This document shows, piece after piece, positions 1-40,014 of a DNA stretch of 40,014 nt. Each line of letters starts with the position of its first letter. The first letter of the stretch is position 1. Position numbers and translations under genes: made by a program. This DNA comes from a virus, in the IMG/VR virus record IMGVR_UViG_3300045049_000089, positions 1-40,014 of that record; one strand, 5' to 3'. Under the pieces are notes generated by a model. It did not search any database. It worked only from the letters and a program-made list of their open reading frames with translations, and was not told the origin of the DNA.

Positions 1-94
1 ACGAGAGCGTCGAGGAGCAAATTGAAGAAGAGGTCCATCAGTCCTCCCAAACGAGTTTTTGCGCGATCTCGGCGTCGCTCATAGCCTTCGAGGC
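1..94. repeat. Terminal direct repeat, left copy
   Basis: Bases 1-94 are identical to bases 39921-40014. The repeat falls inside the cII-like gene, far from the terminase genes and with no cos- or pac-like feature, so it reads as the overlap left when a circular or circularly permuted genome is written as a line. The unique length is 39,920 bp. Confidence 0.95.
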
Positions 95-343
95 GATGCG
101 ATGCATGGCCTCGTACATGTGCGGATCGACGCAGACGCGATCGTTAGCGACGACCTTGAGGCCCGCGGCGGCTAATACCTGGCAGGCACGCTCAAGGTCG
201 TCGCTAACGAAGCGCGAGACGGTGGGTGGTGAAACCCCGATTTCAGCGGCGATCGTGTTTTGCCCGACTGCCGAAATTCGCTGCAACGCAATAGACGCAA
301 ACTTGCGTGCCCTTTCAGCGATCGAGGACGAAACTGTGCTCAT
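38..343 (-). CDS. cII: CII-like transcriptional activator
   Basis: A 101-residue protein resembling the lambda CII family (Phage_CII). A helix-turn-helix is visible at about residues 27-50 (GQNTIAAEIGVSPPTVSRFV), preceded by a basic first helix, as in lambda CII. The ATG at 343 overlaps the cro-like stop codon in an ATGA, so the two genes are translationally coupled. Its stop overlaps the start of a 29-residue membrane peptide in a TGATG. A longer in-frame extension upstream only copies the cro reading region and was not used. By family, CII activates establishment transcription of cI and int; that role is inferred here. The 3' end of the gene is repeated at the right end of the window. Confidence 0.82.
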   Translation of the reverse strand: MSTVSSSIAERARKFASIALQRISAVGQNTIAAEIGVSPPTVSRFVSDDLERACQVLAAAGLKVVANDRVCVDPHMYEAMHRIASKAMSDAEIAQKLVWED

Positions 344-558
344 GCGGCGGCCTCGGAAGGTTTGGGCGACGACTCGACCTCTGCGAGCAGTCCCACGAGG
401 CCAGCGACAACACGATACGAGGGACGCGATGTGCCGATCTTCCCGGATGCGATATCCGAGATCGTTGGCTGGCTGCATCCCACCCGGGTGGCAATCGCCT
501 TCTGCGTCATTCCTGACGCAAGGAGGGTCTGCACGATGGCTTTGAGGTTCGGTTCCAT
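340..558 (-). CDS. cro: Cro-like repressor, probably leaderless
   Basis: A 72-residue HTH_3-type DNA-binding protein, with its helix-turn-helix at about residues 15-42 (ASGMTQKAIATRVGCSQPTI). It diverges from the cI-like gene across a 72-bp control region, the position of lambda cro. I chose the ATG at 558. An in-frame GTG at 564 lies against the -10 box of the only good promoter and could not be transcribed from it. With that promoter the transcript would begin at or next to the ATG, and no Shine-Dalgarno sequence precedes it, so a leaderless mRNA is likely. The stop overlaps the cII start. Calling it Cro rather than the main repressor rests on its size and its operon with cII and the replication genes. 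Confidence 0.8.
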   Translation of the reverse strand: MEPNLKAIVQTLLASGMTQKAIATRVGCSQPTISDIASGKIGTSRPSYRVVAGLVGLLAEVESSPKPSEAAA

Positions 559-608: not shown

Positions 609-615
609 CAACTTG

Positions 616-621
616 TATAAG
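616..621 (+). promoter_or_regulatory. Possible pRM -10 box for the cI-like gene
   Basis: TATAAG lies 9 bp before the ATG at 631. No good -35 lies 16-18 bp upstream, which suits a weak or activator-dependent maintenance promoter. Transcripts would start around 627-629, again almost leaderless. Supported only by position and the -10 match. Confidence 0.4.
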
Positions 622-630
622 AATTCCGAT

Positions 631-1104
631 ATGGAAAAGCTAGATACCCTTGGGGCTCGTTTGAGATGGGCACGGCACAACGCCAAGATGACGCAAGCAG
701 GCGCATCGCGCGCGGTGGGCCTCTCTCAACCGACGCTTTCAGACTTGGAAAACGACAATACGAAGGGCACGACCAGCATCGTGGAGCTGGCAGCGCTGTA
801 TGGGGTCAGTGTCCAATGGCTCAAGAGCGGCCGCGGCTCGGCGCAAGCACAAGCGCCCGGCAGTGTCAATTCAGGGATTACTGACAATAATCCCGTGCTT
901 TCCATCGAATCGGTGCGGCTCGAACGCGCTAAATTGTTGGCGGACGCGCTTCTAGACGTCTCCGAAGAAATGCGAGCATTGATCGAAAAGTTGATCCAGG
1001 CCGACCGTGAGGGCGGCGCGATACGAGAAATGACGATAGCCGGGGCCGGATACGTGCTCCAGGCTGTCCCTGTGACCCAAACACAGAAGAAGGCCAGCAA
1101 ATGA
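631..1104 (+). CDS. cI: CI-like lysogeny repressor without a protease domain
   Basis: A 157-residue protein with an N-terminal HTH_3 domain at about residues 5-67. The helix-turn-helix lies near 20-41 (MTQAGASRAVGLSQPTLSDL), followed by the helical part typical of CI/C2 repressors. The remaining ~90 residues include a charged helix but no sign of the LexA-like S24 peptidase domain of self-cleaving repressors, so the mode of prophage induction is unclear. I chose the ATG at 631 over an in-frame TTG at 613 that would lie inside the presumed promoter. It diverges from the cro-like gene and is the likely binder of the four ATAG-N6-CTAT operators. Its end overlaps the next small gene in an ATGA. 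Confidence 0.8.
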   Translation: MEKLDTLGARLRWARHNAKMTQAGASRAVGLSQPTLSDLENDNTKGTTSIVELAALYGVSVQWLKSGRGSAQAQAPGSVNSGITDNNPVLSIESVRLERAKLLADALLDVSEEMRALIEKLIQADREGGAIREMTIAGAGYVLQAVPVTQTQKKASK

Positions 1105-2337: not shown

Positions 2338-2622
2338 ATGAAACTCACGCAACTCACGATCAAGCGCCGCGAAAGCTACGAGCAAGACGGCGGCCAGCTA
2401 AAGGCAGACGCGATTTTCGAGGGGCCAGGCGGAAAGGTTCAGATCGAGCTAGCGCCGGGATTCATCGTGCGCGTTCTCGCGCTGATCGAAGAAGACGCGG
2501 CCGAGCGAGCCAAGCGGCTCGCGGCAAGCGTTCAGACGGCGATGGTCGATGCGATCGACACGGCGCGCCTAATCGAGACGGACAAGCCGCTCGCCATTGA
2601 GTCGTCTGAAATCCCGTTCTGA
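2338..2622 (+). CDS. Early hypothetical protein (94 aa)
   Basis: A 94-residue protein. The N-terminal half looks beta-rich and the C-terminal half is a charged amphipathic helix. The start is the ATG at 2338 with GGAG in good position; upstream in-frame codons cross the inverted repeat. Not recognised; part of the pL operon. Confidence 0.6.
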   Translation: MKLTQLTIKRRESYEQDGGQLKADAIFEGPGGKVQIELAPGFIVRVLALIEEDAAERAKRLAASVQTAMVDAIDTARLIETDKPLAIESSEIPF

Positions 2623-2630
2623 GGCAGGCA

Positions 2631-2732
2631 ATGAGCCCGCTCGTCCTCGCCCTGCTCGCTTGGTTCCTCCTGCTCGCGCTGTTCGTCGGCTTCATGGCCG
2701 GCGCGGGCCACACGAGAAGCCGCGATGAATGA
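2631..2732 (+). CDS. Single-pass membrane peptide (33 aa)
   Basis: ATG at 2631 with AGGCAG upstream. The 33 residues consist of a Leu/Val/Phe membrane segment (about residues 3-25) and a short charged tail. It overlaps the next start by 8 bp. It opens a run of tiny, tightly packed genes of which at least four encode membrane peptides. Function unknown. Confidence 0.5.
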   Translation: MSPLVLALLAWFLLLALFVGFMAGAGHTRSRDE

Positions 2733-2871
2733 CCTTACGCCCGAAGACATGCGCTCGATAGACGTAGCGCACGCAGTACTAAAAGCGCTCACGTTCGGCC
2801 CTTTCGCGGCGCTCGTGCTCGCCACTTTCATCGATAACGGCCGCTTCGTTGCGGCGCTGATTGGAGGTTGA
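2725..2871 (+). CDS. Small membrane protein (48 aa)
   Basis: A 48-residue protein with a charged N terminus and one hydrophobic segment (about residues 22-36). It overlaps the preceding membrane peptide, and its 3' end contains the GGAGG that serves the next gene. Not recognised. Confidence 0.5.
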   Translation: MNDLTPEDMRSIDVAHAVLKALTFGPFAALVLATFIDNGRFVAALIGG

Positions 2872-2872
2872 C

Positions 2873-3145
2873 ATGGCCCCCGAACTCGAAGCCTGCGGCT
2901 GGTACGTGCGCACGAAGCGAACGGCCGAAGACAGTGCCCGTTGGCTTGTCGCGGATTGCTCGGCTCATCGGCACGGCTCCGACTATGCCCGCCAGTTCGC
3001 CGCAACCGGCGACATGCTCACCGCCCTAGAAACGATCCTCGCCGGCGGCCGGCTGACGAGCGCTGAGCAAGCGATGTGCGCGGCTGCGATCGCGAAGGCG
3101 ACGGGCCGCGACGTGGCGGACGTGGTTAGGGGGAGCGCGTCATGA
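2873..3145 (+). CDS. Early hypothetical protein (90 aa)
   Basis: Start is the ATG at 2873, with a strong GGAGG at 2863-2867; an in-frame TTG at 2861 lies before that ribosome-binding site and was rejected. The 90 residues are soluble and mostly helical, and contain CSAHRHG near residues 29-35. The end overlaps the next start in an ATGA. No family recognised. Confidence 0.6.
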   Translation: MAPELEACGWYVRTKRTAEDSARWLVADCSAHRHGSDYARQFAATGDMLTALETILAGGRLTSAEQAMCAAAIAKATGRDVADVVRGSAS

Positions 3146-3243
3146 AATCCATCGGCGACATCGTCGCGTACTGCGCTGCACTCGCTGGCATCGTGTGGTT
3201 CGTTTTCTTCGTGGTCGATAACGTGGCGAGGGCTTGGTCGTGA
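3142..3243 (+). CDS. Single-pass membrane peptide (33 aa)
   Basis: ATG at 3142 overlaps the preceding stop. The 33 residues include a membrane segment (about residues 7-25) rich in Val, Ile and Phe. Its TGA overlaps a GTG start for the next gene (GTGA). Support comes from start-stop coupling on both sides. Confidence 0.55.
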   Translation: MKSIGDIVAYCAALAGIVWFVFFVVDNVARAWS

Positions 3244-3485
3244 AAACGGAATATTGCGACGCACATTCGCGCGCGGTCTTCATGGCCTTCAAGAAAGCGC
3301 TTGAGCCTCTGATGGAGCAAATAGCGCCTGACTGGATTCTGCATCACATTGAAATGCGTCGTCATTCAGATTTCAGTTTGGACGATCAAAAGGTAACGAT
3401 AATTCTTGTCATCAAGCCAATCGGGAGCGCGAATTTTGTTGACCCGGACGCCGATCTTCGAACCGGACCACGGAGGATCAAGTGA
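3240..3485 (+). CDS. Early hypothetical protein (81 aa)
   Basis: GTG start at 3240 inside the preceding stop (GTGA); an upstream TTG at 3234 is less likely. The 81 residues are predicted alpha/beta and soluble. It overlaps the next gene through another GTGA. Base composition here is less GC-rich than in flanking genes, which may mark a separate origin. Not recognised. Confidence 0.6.
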   Translation: MKTEYCDAHSRAVFMAFKKALEPLMEQIAPDWILHHIEMRRHSDFSLDDQKVTIILVIKPIGSANFVDPDADLRTGPRRIK

Positions 3486-10005: not shown

Positions 10006-10328
10006 CTGAGCGAGCCCTGAGCCTGAAGGAGGCAGCCGCGCTGCTCGGTCTATCCTACTCGACCGTCTACGCGCACAAGATCGAGATGGGCTTTTTCCAG
10101 GTGGGCAATCAATGGCGCGTATGGCCTGACAAGTTGAAGTCCGCGACCGAGTACAATCCAGACCGATCGGCGCGGGACGACGAAAGAAGGAGCAAAAAAT
10201 GTCGATCCGAAAGCGTAACGGCTCGGACATCTGGCACGTTGACATCCGCGCGCCAGGCGGCGGCCGAATTAGACAATCTACTGGCACCACCAACCGAAAG
10301 GAGGCTCAGGAGTATCACGACAAGCTGA
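10002..10328 (+). CDS. xis: Excisionase-like DNA-binding protein
   Basis: ATG at 10002 overlaps the previous stop. 108 residues with a winged-helix/HTH_17-like start (LSLKEAAALLGLSYSTVYAH) and a following wing (GFFQVGNQWRVWP), as in MerR-like excisionases. The last ~43 residues are read over the start of the integrase gene in another frame. Its position directly before int supports a directionality factor. A general regulator of int is also possible. Confidence 0.65.
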   Translation: MTERALSLKEAAALLGLSYSTVYAHKIEMGFFQVGNQWRVWPDKLKSATEYNPDRSARDDERRSKKCRSESVTARTSGTLTSARQAAAELDNLLAPPTERRLRSITTS

Positions 10329-11260
10329 AGCACGATCTGTGGCGGGTCGCAAAGCTTGGAGAGAAACCGAAGCGGACATTCGACGAGGCGGCCCTGCGTT
10401 TTCTGAAGGAGAAAGCCGAGCAGCCGGACTATGGTAACAAAGTGCTGCACATCCGTCATTTCCGCAGCATGTTCGCCGGCCGCGATCTAGGTTCGATCAC
10501 GCGCGATGAGGTGTACGAGGCGCTCCCCGAAGTGAATCGGCGCAAGAAAGAAGTCGTGCCGGTGAGCCGGGCCACGAAGAACCTATACCTGAGCACGATC
10601 CGCTCGATGCTGAACATGGCGGCCGACGAATGGGGATGGATTGCGAGCGCGCCGAAGCTGCCCAACCTCGCGATATCGAACAAACGTATTCGCTGGATCA
10701 CGCGTGAGGAAGCGCAGCGCCTGCTGTCGTCGATCAGGACCGAGTGGATGCGCGATATCACGACGCTCGGCTTTGCGACTGGCCTTCGGCAATCGAACCT
10801 GCTGCACCTCGAATGGGGGCAAGTCGATCTGGTCAAGCGCCGTGCTTGGATCCACCCGGACCAGGCGAAGGCGCGCAAGCCGATCGGCGTGCCGCTGAAC
10901 AACGAGGCCGTCGAGGTTATCCGCCGGCAGATCGGGAAGCACCAGGAACGCGTCTTCTCACGCCGCGGCAAGCCGATTCCTCGATGGGATAGGGCGCAGT
11001 GGGAGCGCGCAGTAGCGCGGGCCGGCATCGAGCATTTCCGGTTCCATGACGTGCGACACACCTGGGCAAGCTGGCACGTGCAGAGCGGGACGCCCCTGAA
11101 TCGGTTGATGGAGCTGGGTGGATGGTCGAAGTACGAGCACGTTTTGCGGTACGCGCACCTTGCGCCGGACCATCTCGCAGAGCACGCGGCGACGGTCACA
11201 ATTTGGGCACAAGGACCAACCGAGGAAGCCGAGGAAAGCGCGCAAAGCCTTGTGGCATAA
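10199..11260 (+). CDS. int: Tyrosine-recombinase integrase
   Basis: 353 residues, the usual length for lambda-type integrases. An N-terminal arm-binding region (about 1-60) and a SAM-like core-binding domain (about 60-150) precede the catalytic domain. Catalytic residues visible are Arg197 (ATGLRQSN), Lys near 224-227, His283 and Arg286 in HDVRH, Trp309 (LGGW, in place of the usual second His) and Tyr318 (LRYAHL). ATG at 10199 has GAAGGAG upstream. Mediates site-specific integration; the probable attP follows directly. Confidence 0.95.
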   Translation: MSIRKRNGSDIWHVDIRAPGGGRIRQSTGTTNRKEAQEYHDKLKHDLWRVAKLGEKPKRTFDEAALRFLKEKAEQPDYGNKVLHIRHFRSMFAGRDLGSITRDEVYEALPEVNRRKKEVVPVSRATKNLYLSTIRSMLNMAADEWGWIASAPKLPNLAISNKRIRWITREEAQRLLSSIRTEWMRDITTLGFATGLRQSNLLHLEWGQVDLVKRRAWIHPDQAKARKPIGVPLNNEAVEVIRRQIGKHQERVFSRRGKPIPRWDRAQWERAVARAGIEHFRFHDVRHTWASWHVQSGTPLNRLMELGGWSKYEHVLRYAHLAPDHLAEHAATVTIWAQGPTEEAEESAQSLVA

Positions 11261-33362: not shown

Positions 33363-34802
33363 TCAGGCTTCCTCGGCTATGCGCTTCGCACGCTGGCGAG
33401 CAATGAGTTGGTCGATCGATAGATCGAGCGGGTATTTCGGGGGAGGCGGAGGGGGCGCTGCGGCTTTCTCCGCCTGATAAGCAACCGCAAGCATCCGAAA
33501 CGCGTCCGCAGGGTTCGAGCACCAGTCGTGCAGAGGCTTCTCGCGAAAGACCTTGTGGTCCGCGTCATATTCGCGCTTGTATTGCGAAAGCGCCTCAATG
33601 CCAGTGAAGCCGGCCGACTCGTCGGTATCGCACGACGTATCGAAGTAGACGCGGGGGAACATCGTGCGCACCGCCTGAATGCCATCCTGCACACTCAAGT
33701 TCGGTACGATTTCGACGTGCTCCCAGCCGACGCCCGGAATTTTGCGGCCATCCTTCTCGACACCTTCGATGAACTGCTCCATGACGCTCTTGCCCATGCT
33801 CGCGAGCGTCTTTGCCTTGGCGTCATGCGGCAGATATAGCTTGCCGAGCTTCGCACCGCGATCCTGCAGGAAGGCCCACAGCCATTCGAGGTAGAAGCCC
33901 ACGTCCTTGCCGTTGCTCGAGTGGAATCCGTTGATGTGGATGGCCTTCCACGGTACCTGAAACGGCCAAATGCTCGTGTCGTCTGTGCGGCCGATGTCGA
34001 AGGCGAAATGCACCGGCAGCGCGGCGTCGACCTTGACCTCTTGGATACGCTTCTCGGCCCGCACTTGGACAATCCACGCCGTGTAATAAGCGCCCAGAAC
34101 GGCCGCGTCGAAGCTGCACATGTATTCCTGGTCGAAGATCGATTGGCCGAACTCAGGGCCGTATTCCGCGATCAGCGAGAGTCGTTCTTGCTCGAGCGCT
34201 TCGGCCGAGAAGATGCCCGTCTCCGTGGCCGGCGACACATCGGCAAACGCGCCCGGCATGTTGCGCGCGGCTTTGAGCATGCGCTCGGCATGATTATGCC
34301 CTCGAGGCGTCGTGATGAAGGCCGACCAGCCGCCATTTTCCAGTAGGATCGGGCGCACATAGGCCCAGGCCGCCGGATTGGCGAGCGCCCACTCGGAGAA
34401 GACAACGCCCGCCGGCGACGATCCAACGAGCGTGTTGTATCGATCGCTACCGCCCACCTGCCACGTCGATCCGTTCACGAACTCGATGAACATCTCCCGC
34501 TCACGCGTGGTCTTGCGAAGCGCTTGCGGGAAGGCTTCGTCGATCCGGCGCATGCCCGTATGCGGGTTCACGGCGGTCCAGATGGCTTTGCGTGCATGCG
34601 CCGCTTCCGGCAGCAAGTGCCAATAGGCGCCGACGCGCTCAAACGCTGCTACGCTCGTCCAGCGCAGCGCGATATCGTCCTTGCCCCAGCGCCGATGCGC
34701 GATTTGATAGAGATAGCGACCGCCGTTCTCGAGATATGTCCATGCCTTGCGCTGATGCCTGCGAGGCTTCCAGCCATAGGCCGGGAGGATGATCTCAGGC
34801 AT
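33363..34802 (-). CDS. terL: Terminase large subunit
   Basis: 479 residues from ATG 34802 (an alternative in-frame ATG at 34814 adds four). The ATPase has Walker A RRWGKDD at residues 37-43, in the Arg-Arg-x-Gly-Lys form common in terminases, and Walker B VVFSEWA (133-139). The RNase H-like nuclease begins at FAFDIGRTDD with Asp269. A Pro-rich linker and helical tail end the protein. Packages DNA into the procapsid; the family suggests headful packaging, in keeping with the circularly permuted map. Confidence 0.9.
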   Translation of the reverse strand: MPEIILPAYGWKPRRHQRKAWTYLENGGRYLYQIAHRRWGKDDIALRWTSVAAFERVGAYWHLLPEAAHARKAIWTAVNPHTGMRRIDEAFPQALRKTTREREMFIEFVNGSTWQVGGSDRYNTLVGSSPAGVVFSEWALANPAAWAYVRPILLENGGWSAFITTPRGHNHAERMLKAARNMPGAFADVSPATETGIFSAEALEQERLSLIAEYGPEFGQSIFDQEYMCSFDAAVLGAYYTAWIVQVRAEKRIQEVKVDAALPVHFAFDIGRTDDTSIWPFQVPWKAIHINGFHSSNGKDVGFYLEWLWAFLQDRGAKLGKLYLPHDAKAKTLASMGKSVMEQFIEGVEKDGRKIPGVGWEHVEIVPNLSVQDGIQAVRTMFPRVYFDTSCDTDESAGFTGIEALSQYKREYDADHKVFREKPLHDWCSNPADAFRMLAVAYQAEKAAAPPPPPPKYPLDLSIDQLIARQRAKRIAEEA

Positions 34803-35184
34803 TCTCATCCCCATGCCGCACGATCTTGACTACGAGTGCTCCGCCGCCCTCGCCGGTCAATTCCTGCGTAAACTTGTCGCCATACTTCTTCGGATTCATG
34901 CGCGCGAGCACCCACTTGCGGGCGTCGATCTGCACGCGCGTCTTTTGCGGATCACTCTTGCTATCCGCGATGTCGATGATCTCGTCGAAGTAGCGCTCGG
35001 CGCGAAGCTGCTGAGCCTCAGCGTATTGGGCGGCCAGCTTCCCGTCATTTTCGAGCCACCGAAGCACTGTTCGCGTGTTCGGCATGTCCGCTGCTTTGCA
35101 GACCGAGCGTAGGCTTGCCCCCTCGGCCATGCGCTCGCAGATGCGATCAAACAGCGCTTGAGAGAACTTTGATGCGCGGGCCAT
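34795..35184 (-). CDS. terS: Terminase small subunit
   Basis: 129 residues. The N-terminal helix-turn-helix (RICERMAEGASLRSVCKAAD then TRTVLRWLE) and the helical oligomerisation part are like Sf6-type small terminases. Overlaps terL by 8 bp. Recognises the packaging site; the site itself is not evident. Confidence 0.85.
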   Translation of the reverse strand: MARASKFSQALFDRICERMAEGASLRSVCKAADMPNTRTVLRWLENDGKLAAQYAEAQQLRAERYFDEIIDIADSKSDPQKTRVQIDARKWVLARMNPKKYGDKFTQELTGEGGGALVVKIVRHGDENA

Positions 35185-35479: not shown

Positions 35480-35908
35480 TCAATCGACGGATTCAGTCAT
35501 CTCCGCGCGATTATAGGCATAGCGTATGGGTTTCGCAAGGTCATCGAATTTTTCCAATCTGGCGGCGATCGCTTGGCGAGCGTGGTAAAGGGCGAAATCC
35601 CATACATGCTCGTGGCCGCGCCCCTGCTTGAGCTTCAGCCGCCGGCAGATGAACGACGAATGAGCCCGCCACACGTAATGCATTCGCAGCACGTCTCGAT
35701 CAACGGGCATGCAGCGCTTCCACGCCTCGTTCACGAGGTTTGCATCTTGCTGGTCGATCGGCGGCAGCACGATAGCTTCCTCGCGATATAGCACGCCCGG
35801 ACGCCGATACATGCCTTCGGCGCTCGCGATGCACGCGCCACTGCCCCCGCTCGAGTTTTGCGAGCGCGCCCAGTTTTCCAGCCTCGGCTCAAGCGTCGCC
35901 AGGTCCAT
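35480..35908 (-). CDS. Q-like late antiterminator
   Basis: 142 residues. The middle and C-terminal part (DANLVNEAWKRCMPVDRDVL ... ICRRLKLKQGRGHEHVWDFA, then LYHARQAIAARLEKFD) has the helical pattern of phage Q/sigma-4-like late regulators. ATG at 35908 with GGAGG upstream. Its place decides the call: last early gene, with a strong promoter inside its 3' end and a terminator just downstream, the layout of lambda Q-pR'-tR'. By analogy it would load onto polymerase at the promoter and allow passage through the terminators of the late operon. Confidence 0.65.
   Translation of the reverse strand: MDLATLEPRLENWARSQNSSGGSGACIASAEGMYRRPGVLYREEAIVLPPIDQQDANLVNEAWKRCMPVDRDVLRMHYVWRAHSSFICRRLKLKQGRGHEHVWDFALYHARQAIAARLEKFDDLAKPIRYAYNRAEMTESVD
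35510..35538 (-). promoter_or_regulatory. pR'-like late promoter
   Basis: On the minus strand TTGCGA (35538-35533), a 17-nt spacer and the perfect -10 TATAAT (35515-35510), inside the 3' end of the Q-like gene. Predicted start near 35503. No other promoter of this quality was noticed before the terminase genes. Confidence 0.85.
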
Positions 35909-36245: not shown

Positions 36246-36680
36246 TTATGCGGCCGCTTGATTGAGCGGAGGAGTGAAGATTTGCCAGTCGTCGGCAAGC
36301 AGGGAGTCCATGCCGGGAATAAAAACGCAAACCGTGTCGTCGGCGCGCTTGATCGCCAGGTAGGCAAAATACGGCACCATCGATCCCTCGCCGAAATGAG
36401 CCTTTGCAGCGCCCGTTTGTACGGGGTATGCCGCCGCCGGCACGTGGTAGACGAAAACGCCTGCAGCGCCCCATGGGGCGCGAGTGACGCTCAATCCCTT
36501 TCGCAGTGCCTCCAGCGCCAGGCCGAACGACATGCCGTCACTGCGCCGGTATGCCTCCTCGAAAACATCCTTGGGAGACCAGCTCGTATAGCCGTCAGCG
36601 TAGTGCACGGCGTAACCGTCCTTGCCCGCTTGCTGGTGGGGAAATGCGTGAACGATCTTGGTGCCGATGTATTGGTCCAT
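36246..36680 (-). CDS. Tad2-like (DUF2829) anti-defence protein
   Basis: 144 residues in two parts. Residues ~1-47 (YIGTKIVHAFPHQQ ... DGYTSWSPKDVFEEAYR) are a module common in phage proteins. Residues ~50-138 are a DUF2829 domain: MSFGLALEALRKGLSVTRAP, then PYFAYLAIKRADDTVCVFIP and GMDSLLADDWQIF. DUF2829 is the family of Thoeris anti-defence 2, in which Tad2 multimers bind the cyclic signalling molecules of Thoeris and some CBASS systems. ATG at 36680 with AGGA upstream. Expression from pR puts it early, when such protection is needed. The activity is inferred from the family. Confidence 0.75.
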   Translation of the reverse strand: MDQYIGTKIVHAFPHQQAGKDGYAVHYADGYTSWSPKDVFEEAYRRSDGMSFGLALEALRKGLSVTRAPWGAAGVFVYHVPAAAYPVQTGAAKAHFGEGSMVPYFAYLAIKRADDTVCVFIPGMDSLLADDWQIFTPPLNQAAA

Positions 36681-36693
36681 CGTCTTCCTCAGG

Positions 36694-37164
36694 TCAAATT
36701 GCGCGTCGCGCGGTTGCGGTAACTGCTACGGCGAGAGCGCTCCAAGCGTGGCTTGAAACGCCGTAAAGAGGGCCTGGCATAGCCTTCGTGCCGACCTGAG
36801 GTGTCTTGCCTCCTCCGGTCCGCGGAAACATGTCGAGCAGCGCTTGGCGGATGTTTGGGTCTTTGGCGCGCGAGTTGCCGCACAGGTGCAGCTTCACGTC
36901 GCGGCGGTAGACGAACTGCACCGCGTCGGGCCGAAAATAGGCCTGCTGGAACCGCCCGATCCAAACGCAGGTATCGAACGTCGTCTGACCGACCGCCATG
37001 CCCATGCCGGCGATCATTTCGATTGCTAGGCCCTCTTTCCATCGGCTGACGAGTTCCAGGACGCCCGCATTGGGCGACACGTCGCTGCTCGACACGCGGC
37101 CATCTTCGAGGATGACCCAACCGCTCTTGTCCGTGCCCGGATCTATCGACAAAAGCGCGCTCAT
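36694..37164 (-). CDS. RuvC-like Holliday junction resolvase
   Basis: 156 residues with an RNase H-like fold. Motifs: Asp8 in LLSIDPGTDKSG, Glu49 in LAIEMIAG, a conserved AKDPNIRQALLD helix, and C-terminal His139 (SSHAWSALAVA) where RuvC has its last acidic/His motif. By family it resolves branched DNA before packaging and replaces NinG/Rap of other lambdoids. Overlaps its upstream neighbour by an ATGA. Confidence 0.75.
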   Translation of the reverse strand: MSALLSIDPGTDKSGWVILEDGRVSSSDVSPNAGVLELVSRWKEGLAIEMIAGMGMAVGQTTFDTCVWIGRFQQAYFRPDAVQFVYRRDVKLHLCGNSRAKDPNIRQALLDMFPRTGGGKTPQVGTKAMPGPLYGVSSHAWSALAVAVTATARRAI

Positions 37165-37577: not shown

Positions 37578-37727
37578 TCACCTCACCGTCAAAAGGTTTC
37601 TGCCCCACCGCCGCCAGCCGGCTTCCCATGAGTCGTAGTCGGCCTTGTCGCGATAGACGTGATAGGGGTTATGCCAATTCGGCATGCCCTTGCGGGCGGC
37701 CTCGTAGCCCTGTTCGAAGGCCGTCAT
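37578..37727 (-). CDS. RMF/CrpP-like small protein (49 aa)
   Basis: 49 residues. The FEQGYEAARKGMPNWHNPYH ... SWEAGWRRWGR pattern recalls ribosome modulation factor/CrpP-type peptides (Gly-Tyr-x2-Gly-like start, Asn-Pro middle, Trp-x2-Gly-Trp end). Start at the ATG overlapping the helicase stop (ATGA) chosen over upstream ATGs inside that gene. Function uncertain; RMF itself dimerises ribosomes. Confidence 0.6.
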   Translation of the reverse strand: MTAFEQGYEAARKGMPNWHNPYHVYRDKADYDSWEAGWRRWGRNLLTVR

Positions 37728-38689
37728 CGAAGCCCCCATTGCGTTTGCCATTGACCCGTGCGCAGGTCGAGGAACGACGATGCGTTTCGATCGTCGCGGA
37801 ATTGCAGGCTCTCGGTGTCGAACCACAGCTTGACCTTGCCCTCCCATGTGAAATGCCGTTGCTTGGCGCAGATCAGGATCGTGTCGGCCTGCGCTTCGTA
37901 CTTGGCGCGCTCGTCGTCCTTCAGGTCATTGCGCAACGCCTCTTCCTTTCGCTTGTTGCGATGCACGATCAGCACGTTGTCGACAAGGTCGGTGATTTCG
38001 CCTGCGCCTTTGATGTCGAACTTGTCGGGCGCGTTAGTCTCGCGCTCGCCCTTGCGGATGTGGTGCACGAGGTGAATGTGCAAGCCAGTGTCTCGAGCGA
38101 GGGAGCACAGCGCGTCGACGAAAGCCTTCTGCCCGGAATAGTCATCCGGTGCGATGCCGCATTTCATCAGGCTGTCGATCACCATGTGGCCGACGCCGAG
38201 TTCCTTCCGGCAGTAGCGCGATACCGAGATCATCCGATCGCGCGGCACCGTTCCGGTTTGGTTGTAGAGCCAGAGCCGCGCATTGGTCCAATGCTCGAGC
38301 TGCGCGAGATATTCGCGCGCCGGCTTGGCCTGGCAGGCGGCCTGCTTAGCCATGCGCTCGAGCGTCGTCTCGGGGGCCATTTCCATCGACGCGATGCACG
38401 CGCGCTCGCCCTGAGCCATAACGCCGAGCATGCACTGCCCCAGAACGCCCGACTTGCCGTGGCCATTAACGCCGCTCCACAGCGTCACCTCGCCGGCCCG
38501 AAAGGCCAGGTTATGGCCCACGCTTGCCCAGGGCGTCAGCGCCCCGACGTAACGCTCCTGCTGCTCGCCGTGCAAGCGATCAATGACGCGGCCGAAGAAT
38601 TCGCTTGCCGGTCGCACGTCGGCGCGGCCGTCATTTTCGTCGGCGAGGTACGACTCCCAATCGATCGAATCGGGGAGGATGTTAGCCAA
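37724..38689 (-). CDS. DnaB-type replicative helicase (TTG start)
   Basis: 321 residues from a TTG at 38689 that has an ideal AGGAGG exactly 6 nt upstream; a longer frame from 38737 overlaps the previous gene. RecA-fold SF4 helicase core: Walker A GVNGHGKS (73-80), Walker B-like HMVIDSL (~165), and a DnaB-like H3 segment (HIHLVHHIRKGE) with a downstream arginine-finger region. It lacks the N-terminal primase-binding domain of full DnaB, like other phage single-domain helicases. Replaces lambda P plus host DnaB recruitment, or works with the neighbouring unknown gene. Confidence 0.85.
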   Translation of the reverse strand: MANILPDSIDWESYLADENDGRADVRPASEFFGRVIDRLHGEQQERYVGALTPWASVGHNLAFRAGEVTLWSGVNGHGKSGVLGQCMLGVMAQGERACIASMEMAPETTLERMAKQAACQAKPAREYLAQLEHWTNARLWLYNQTGTVPRDRMISVSRYCRKELGVGHMVIDSLMKCGIAPDDYSGQKAFVDALCSLARDTGLHIHLVHHIRKGERETNAPDKFDIKGAGEITDLVDNVLIVHRNKRKEEALRNDLKDDERAKYEAQADTILICAKQRHFTWEGKVKLWFDTESLQFRDDRNASSFLDLRTGQWQTQWGLR

Positions 38690-39868: not shown

Positions 39869-39958
39869 TCACCGCCACACAAAAAACGGACGCCCGAAAC
39901 AGAGCGACAGCACACCGACGACGAGAGCGTCGAGGAGCAAATTGAAGAAGAGGTCCAT
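39869..39958 (-). CDS. Small membrane peptide between cII and the initiator (29 aa)
   Basis: A 29-residue frame that crosses the ends of the window and is intact at this end. Its ATG overlaps the cII stop (TGATG), and its TGA stands one base before the initiator ATG (TGAAATG). A single hydrophobic segment (NLLLDALVVGVLSLCF) with an Arg-ended tail. Coupling on both sides argues for translation. Confidence 0.55.
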   Translation of the reverse strand: MDLFFNLLLDALVVGVLSLCFGRPFFVWR

Positions 39959-40014
39959 CAGTCCTCCCAAACGAGTTTTTGCGCGATCTCGGCGTCGCTC
40001 ATAGCCTTCGAGGC
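39921..40014. repeat. Terminal direct repeat, right copy
   Basis: Identical to bases 1-94; see the left copy. It carries the 3' end of the cII-like gene (39958 onward), so that gene appears here only in part. Confidence 0.95.

Follow-up and report, generated by a model that had tools for sequence, protein, structure and literature searches.

A clade of phage Tad2-like proteins with an altered pocket motif, represented by a gene carrying a portable N-terminal module

The Tad2-like gene lies on the minus strand at positions 36246–36680 of the window, by which we mean the whole 40,014-nucleotide stretch of viral DNA analyzed here (IMG/VR record IMGVR_UViG_3300045049_000089), and its open reading frame encodes 144 amino acids. 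Its ATG lies 13 bases past the TGA (36694–36696) of an upstream gene of the same operon for a RuvC-like Holliday junction resolvase (36694–37164, minus strand; phrog_1770, E 3.4e-17), and a probable ribosome-binding site, GAGGAAG (36684–36690, minus strand), directly follows that stop codon. Because of this spacing and the good ribosome-binding site within it, the two genes are likely co-transcribed and their translation coupled. Joined across the repeat at the record ends, the minus-strand operon runs from a CII-like gene through genes for a replication initiator, a DnaB-like helicase, a ribosome modulation factor-like protein, an HTH protein, and the RuvC-like resolvase to the Tad2-like gene, and continues with a small Cys-rich ORF, a phrog_19609 gene, and the small and large terminase genes, the last of these (33363–34814; no Pfam match) being inferred from position and sequence. 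Judged by gene order, the layout matches a lambda-like early operon, in which the Tad2-like gene occupies the nin-region position. The phage is temperate, with an integrase gene (10199–11260, plus strand), a repressor-like gene (613–1104, plus strand), and the CII-like gene (38–478, minus strand).

An exact 94-base direct repeat is present at both record ends (positions 1–94 and 39921–40014), which suggests a complete genome map. The ribosome modulation factor-like protein of the early operon (37578–37847, minus strand) matches PF04957 with an E-value of 5e-5, below the curated cut-off. The phrog_19609 protein (35480–35908, minus strand) adjoins the terminase genes, a position like that of a late-gene regulator such as Q.

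The initial annotation held that early expression from pR would suit counter-defence. The placement in the operon speaks for this, and by analogy an early-operon position plausibly fits such a role; the promoter part of the claim is less secure, in that the operon is presumably transcribed from a pR-like promoter while the sites returned by the promoter scan were no more than expected by chance. No sigma-70-type promoter was found directly upstream of the Tad2-like gene, and no TIR gene was found in the window.

The C-terminal part of the protein had initially been read as a DUF2829/Tad2 pattern, for which a PF11195 profile search was proposed. That search matched PF11195 (Tad2-like) to residues 50–134 (36279–36533, minus strand) with an E-value of 1.2e-13 and 51.8 bits, above the curated cut-off of 25 bits, and a phrog_872 match spans residues 9–134; NCBIfam and PADLOC, searched with the same protein, gave no match. 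Among PDB sequences, the matches were ModTad2 (2.6e-18), SPO1 Tad2 (3.9e-9), and HgmTad2/AcrIIA7 (3.4e-7). The AlphaFold2 model, computed as a single chain from an 84-sequence alignment, has a mean pLDDT of 92.5, and when it was searched with Foldseek all 24 matches at E < 0.001 were Tad2 chains, headed by ModTad2 with hisADPR (9eib; 42% identity), with the SPO1, Hgm, and Spt Tad2 structures also near by Foldseek and VIA-align (Z about 11–12.7 against Tad2 chains). The pattern reading is thus borne out, and profile and fold together place the protein in the Tad2-like family. The solved structures closest to it are ModTad2 with hisADPR, SPO1 Tad2 with gcADPR, and HgmTad2 with cADPR.

ModTad2, the Tad2 of a Myroides odoratus prophage (9eib, 8v3e), shares with the window protein the fold, the length of the Tad2 domain, a conserved α1, and a VP..Y..QT..K..FG pattern, at 41–42% identity; it differs in having no N-terminal module and in carrying the canonical WNGKGM, TW, and PSxSD where the window protein has WGAAGV, VF, and PGMDS. 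SPO1 Tad2 (8sme, 8smf) is likewise a short form of the Tad2 fold without the dinucleotide insertion, but it is only about 30% identical, has the canonical pocket motif, and lacks the module. Through binding of their ligands, His-ADPR and gcADPR, MoTad2 and SPO1 Tad2 block type II and type I Thoeris, respectively (PMC13299392). HgmTad2/AcrIIA7 (8kbi–8kbm) and SptTad2 (8wjd) also share the fold (Z 11.6 and 12.7) but are longer than the window domain, and HgmTad2, with a canonical motif, carries an insertion that forms its cyclic-dinucleotide site (PMC12043709).

This last difference bears on a second initial claim, the anti-CBASS part of the label anti-Thoeris/anti-CBASS. HgmTad2/AcrIIA7 and SptTad2 do bind cGG according to their PDB titles, which lends the idea some footing; however, the insertion that makes the HgmTad2 site is absent from the window domain (85 versus 101 aligned residues), and the short SPO1 Tad2 does not bind 3′3′-cGAMP (PMC11722364). 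For these two reasons anti-CBASS activity of the known kind appears unlikely from the sequence, the claim was not upheld, and we regard a cyclic-dinucleotide sponge as highly improbable.

The window Tad2 domain is one of 10 distinct sequences (the window, L043, L044, L046, L051, L052, L059, L067, L071, and L138) that form a monophyletic clade, whose tree support is 100/99 and whose stem measures 0.68 changes per column. Compared with 92 homologs outside the clade, SPO1 Tad2, ModTad2, and HgmTad2 included, the clade has changed residues that are otherwise nearly invariant. Trp120, present in 92 of 92 non-clade homologs, is Phe in all 10 members; Ser123 (90 of 92) is Gly in 10 of 10; Asp126 (91 of 92) is Ser in 10 of 10, accompanied in the window protein by a new Asp at 125; and Thr119 is replaced by Val or Met. 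In the WNGK loop, Asn71 (90/92) is lost in 8 of 10 members and Gly72 (92/92) in 9 of 10, so that N71-G72-K73 is lost or shortened in most of the clade. For the window protein these changes amount to an altered β1-β2 loop at residues 69–75 (PWGAAGV against canonical GWNGKGM; 36456–36476, minus strand) and an altered β4 and β4-α3 motif at residues 117–128 (VCVFIPGMDSLL against canonical VSTWVPSVxDxL; 36297–36332, minus strand), in which STWxPSxxD has become CVFxPGMDS. The initial annotation did not remark on this departure.

In the model, the altered residues fall in the β1-β2 loop, β4, the β4-α3 loop, and the start of α3; these segments, together with the β3-β4 loop, form the gcADPR pocket from two protomers according to a review (PMC12043709), and we assigned the pocket positions of the window protein by secondary-structure segment following that source. 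The motif common to SPO1 Tad2, ModTad2, and HgmTad2 (WNGK ... W.xS..D.LA.DW) is absent from the window protein, and because it is the pocket motif shared by the characterized anti-Thoeris Tad2 proteins, the ligand cannot be assigned by homology; this loss lowers the claim to a known ligand and leaves family membership unaffected. The motif is not quite universal: some weak relatives outside the clade (L024, L027, L030, and L031) also depart from it.

Among cultured phages, no close DNA relative was found, and no member of the pocket clade was seen, a result that covers the motif of the best match; that match, from Acidovorax phage AP1 (56%), has the canonical pocket motif. The best plasmid match is at 58% (Stenotrophomonas). 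Only 2 of 398 genomes of the family of the Paraburkholderia host hold a close relative, and one clade member lies in a contig of Paraburkholderia antibiotica (L123).

The extra N-terminal module noted in the initial annotation is present at residues 4–45 (YIGTKIV...SWSPKDVFEEAYR; 36546–36671, minus strand) and is conserved in 61–65 diverse phage proteins. AlphaFold2 predicts it, modeled alone, as a β-β-β-helix unit with a pLDDT of 95.7. Scanning viral contigs for the module yielded at least 580 stretches that carry it, and the 65 distinct module-bearing proteins comprise 28 with Tad2, 14 with Gp49_66 (PF13876), 14 with crAss001_48 (PF21825), and 9 short proteins (about 55–80 residues) with no Pfam partner. 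By these counts the module is a portable small phage domain and not special to the window gene; since many module-bearing phage proteins carry Tad2, the two-part architecture of the window protein is common. It recurs in phrog_872 proteins and in the Escherichia coli phages N4 (gp49) and Kapi1, and an IME10 protein matches the window protein along its full length; N4 gp49, however, has the canonical motif (KGWNGKGM...PWVPSQSD) and is only about 32% identical to the window protein. Tad2 and Gp49_66 genes adjoin in phages AP1 and N4. The partner families of the module may be functionally linked.

Sources of the module include L170–L249, L032–L037, L039, and positions 36546–36671 of the window, where it is fused to Tad2, Gp49_66, or crAss001_48 or stands alone. 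Tad2 is also fused to Gp49_66 in a single reading frame in L004 (1–699), L087 (2548–3729), and L152, and the L004 and L087 fusions have three domains, N-terminal module, Tad2, and Gp49_66. PF13876 is named for N4 Gp49, yet N4 gp49 (NC_008720) matches Tad2-like only; the Gp49_66-like protein of N4 is the adjoining gp48 (L040 at 2603–3456 holds both genes). Because its SWSP motif is TWEP-like and it has faint fold matches, the module was also considered as a chromodomain or Tudor domain. Its three-strand-plus-helix layout does resemble chromodomains, Tudor domains, and the small RNA-polymerase-interacting barrels of Mfd, CarD, and UvrD, though only weakly: the top Foldseek match has an E-value of 0.58, and the top VIA-align Z is 4.1. 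No sequence match rose above chance, and none of the matches is significant.

The window was compared with L005/L006 part by part. The N-terminal modules are identical for 50 residues, the 11 base changes between them all being silent, and the Tad2 domains agree at only about 61% of residues, that of L005/L006 being canonical behind the same module. Where the module gives way to the Tad2 domain, synonymous divergence climbs from about 0.5 to about 1.6. It is therefore likely, on this pattern of substitutions, that the signal-binding domain has been swapped behind a conserved module. Against L002, the module has 6 silent and no amino-acid-changing differences, and by such codon comparisons it is under strong purifying selection; the dN/dS of the window gene is 0.11 against L002 (range 0.11–0.15). 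The suggestion in the initial annotation that the module could set ligand choice is weakened by two of these observations: some members of the pocket-variant clade have the module and others do not (half of the clade lacks it), and in L005/L006 the identical module is joined to a Tad2 domain of canonical type.

Decay of the window gene is argued against by the purifying selection (dN/dS 0.11–0.15) and by the occurrence of the pocket change throughout the clade, on differing N-terminal contexts; a change of ligand is therefore plausible and would be the simplest reading of the clade. We somewhat favor the view that the protein is a Tad2-family phage signal sponge of a pocket-variant clade whose preferred signal is related to, but different from, the known ones. 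As a sponge of the branch nearest ModTad2, it would be made early, with the replication genes, assemble by homology into a tetramer through its Tad2 domain, and, by analogy, capture a nucleotide signal of the immune response in inter-protomer pockets, which would keep a Thoeris-like effector off and rescue the phage. With the pocket residues common to gcADPR-, His-ADPR-, and cADPR-binding Tad2 proteins swapped together, the preferred signal is probably related yet different, and the module would perhaps serve protein contact or localization rather than being the ligand-binding part.

Several features temper the proposed ligand change: the substitution of Trp by Phe is mild, D126S comes with the new Asp at 125 and a similar ligand might still bind, and the clade is small (n = 10), with no cultured phage member seen. 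A rival reading is a plain His-ADPR sponge of the ModTad2 kind that counters type II Thoeris, its ligand the same as before and its motif changes either compensated or due to neutral drift. ModTad2 with hisADPR is indeed the closest in sequence and structure, and outside the motif the window Tad2 domain is strongly conserved with its canonical relatives; we nevertheless consider an unchanged ligand rather unlikely, as residues kept in 90–92 of 92 homologs with various ligands change on one branch and are then fixed, unlike drift. The loss of the ligand motif could alternatively mean that the Tad2 fold now serves a purpose other than nucleotide sequestration, such as directly inhibiting a defense protein or an anti-CRISPR-type role, with the module as a targeting part. 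AcrIIA7, deposited as a type II CRISPR-Cas inhibitor, has the Tad2 fold, and the module also occurs on Gp49_66 and crAss001_48 domains, for which no nucleotide ligand is known. This reuse seems improbable, given that the altered pocket segments are strongly conserved within the clade, as for a pocket under selection, and that half of the clade has no module. A sponge with a related but different signal thus remains our preferred reading.

A bolder proposal, which we offer tentatively as possible rather than probable, is that a clade present in several phage backgrounds has turned its pocket to a signal bound by no characterized Tad2, and that the module is a toolkit mark, with Gp49_66 and crAss001_48 as further counter-defense domains. 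If true, the pocket switch of the clade would point to a defense signal not yet assigned. As baits for the immune signals of bacteria, sponge proteins are useful, and a Tad2 branch in which the fold is retained while the residues common to gcADPR and His-ADPR binders are swapped together would be a natural probe for a further signal. The N-terminal module, for its part, is a sequence handle tying Tad2 to two widespread phage families of unknown function, and could guide the search for new counter-defense proteins.
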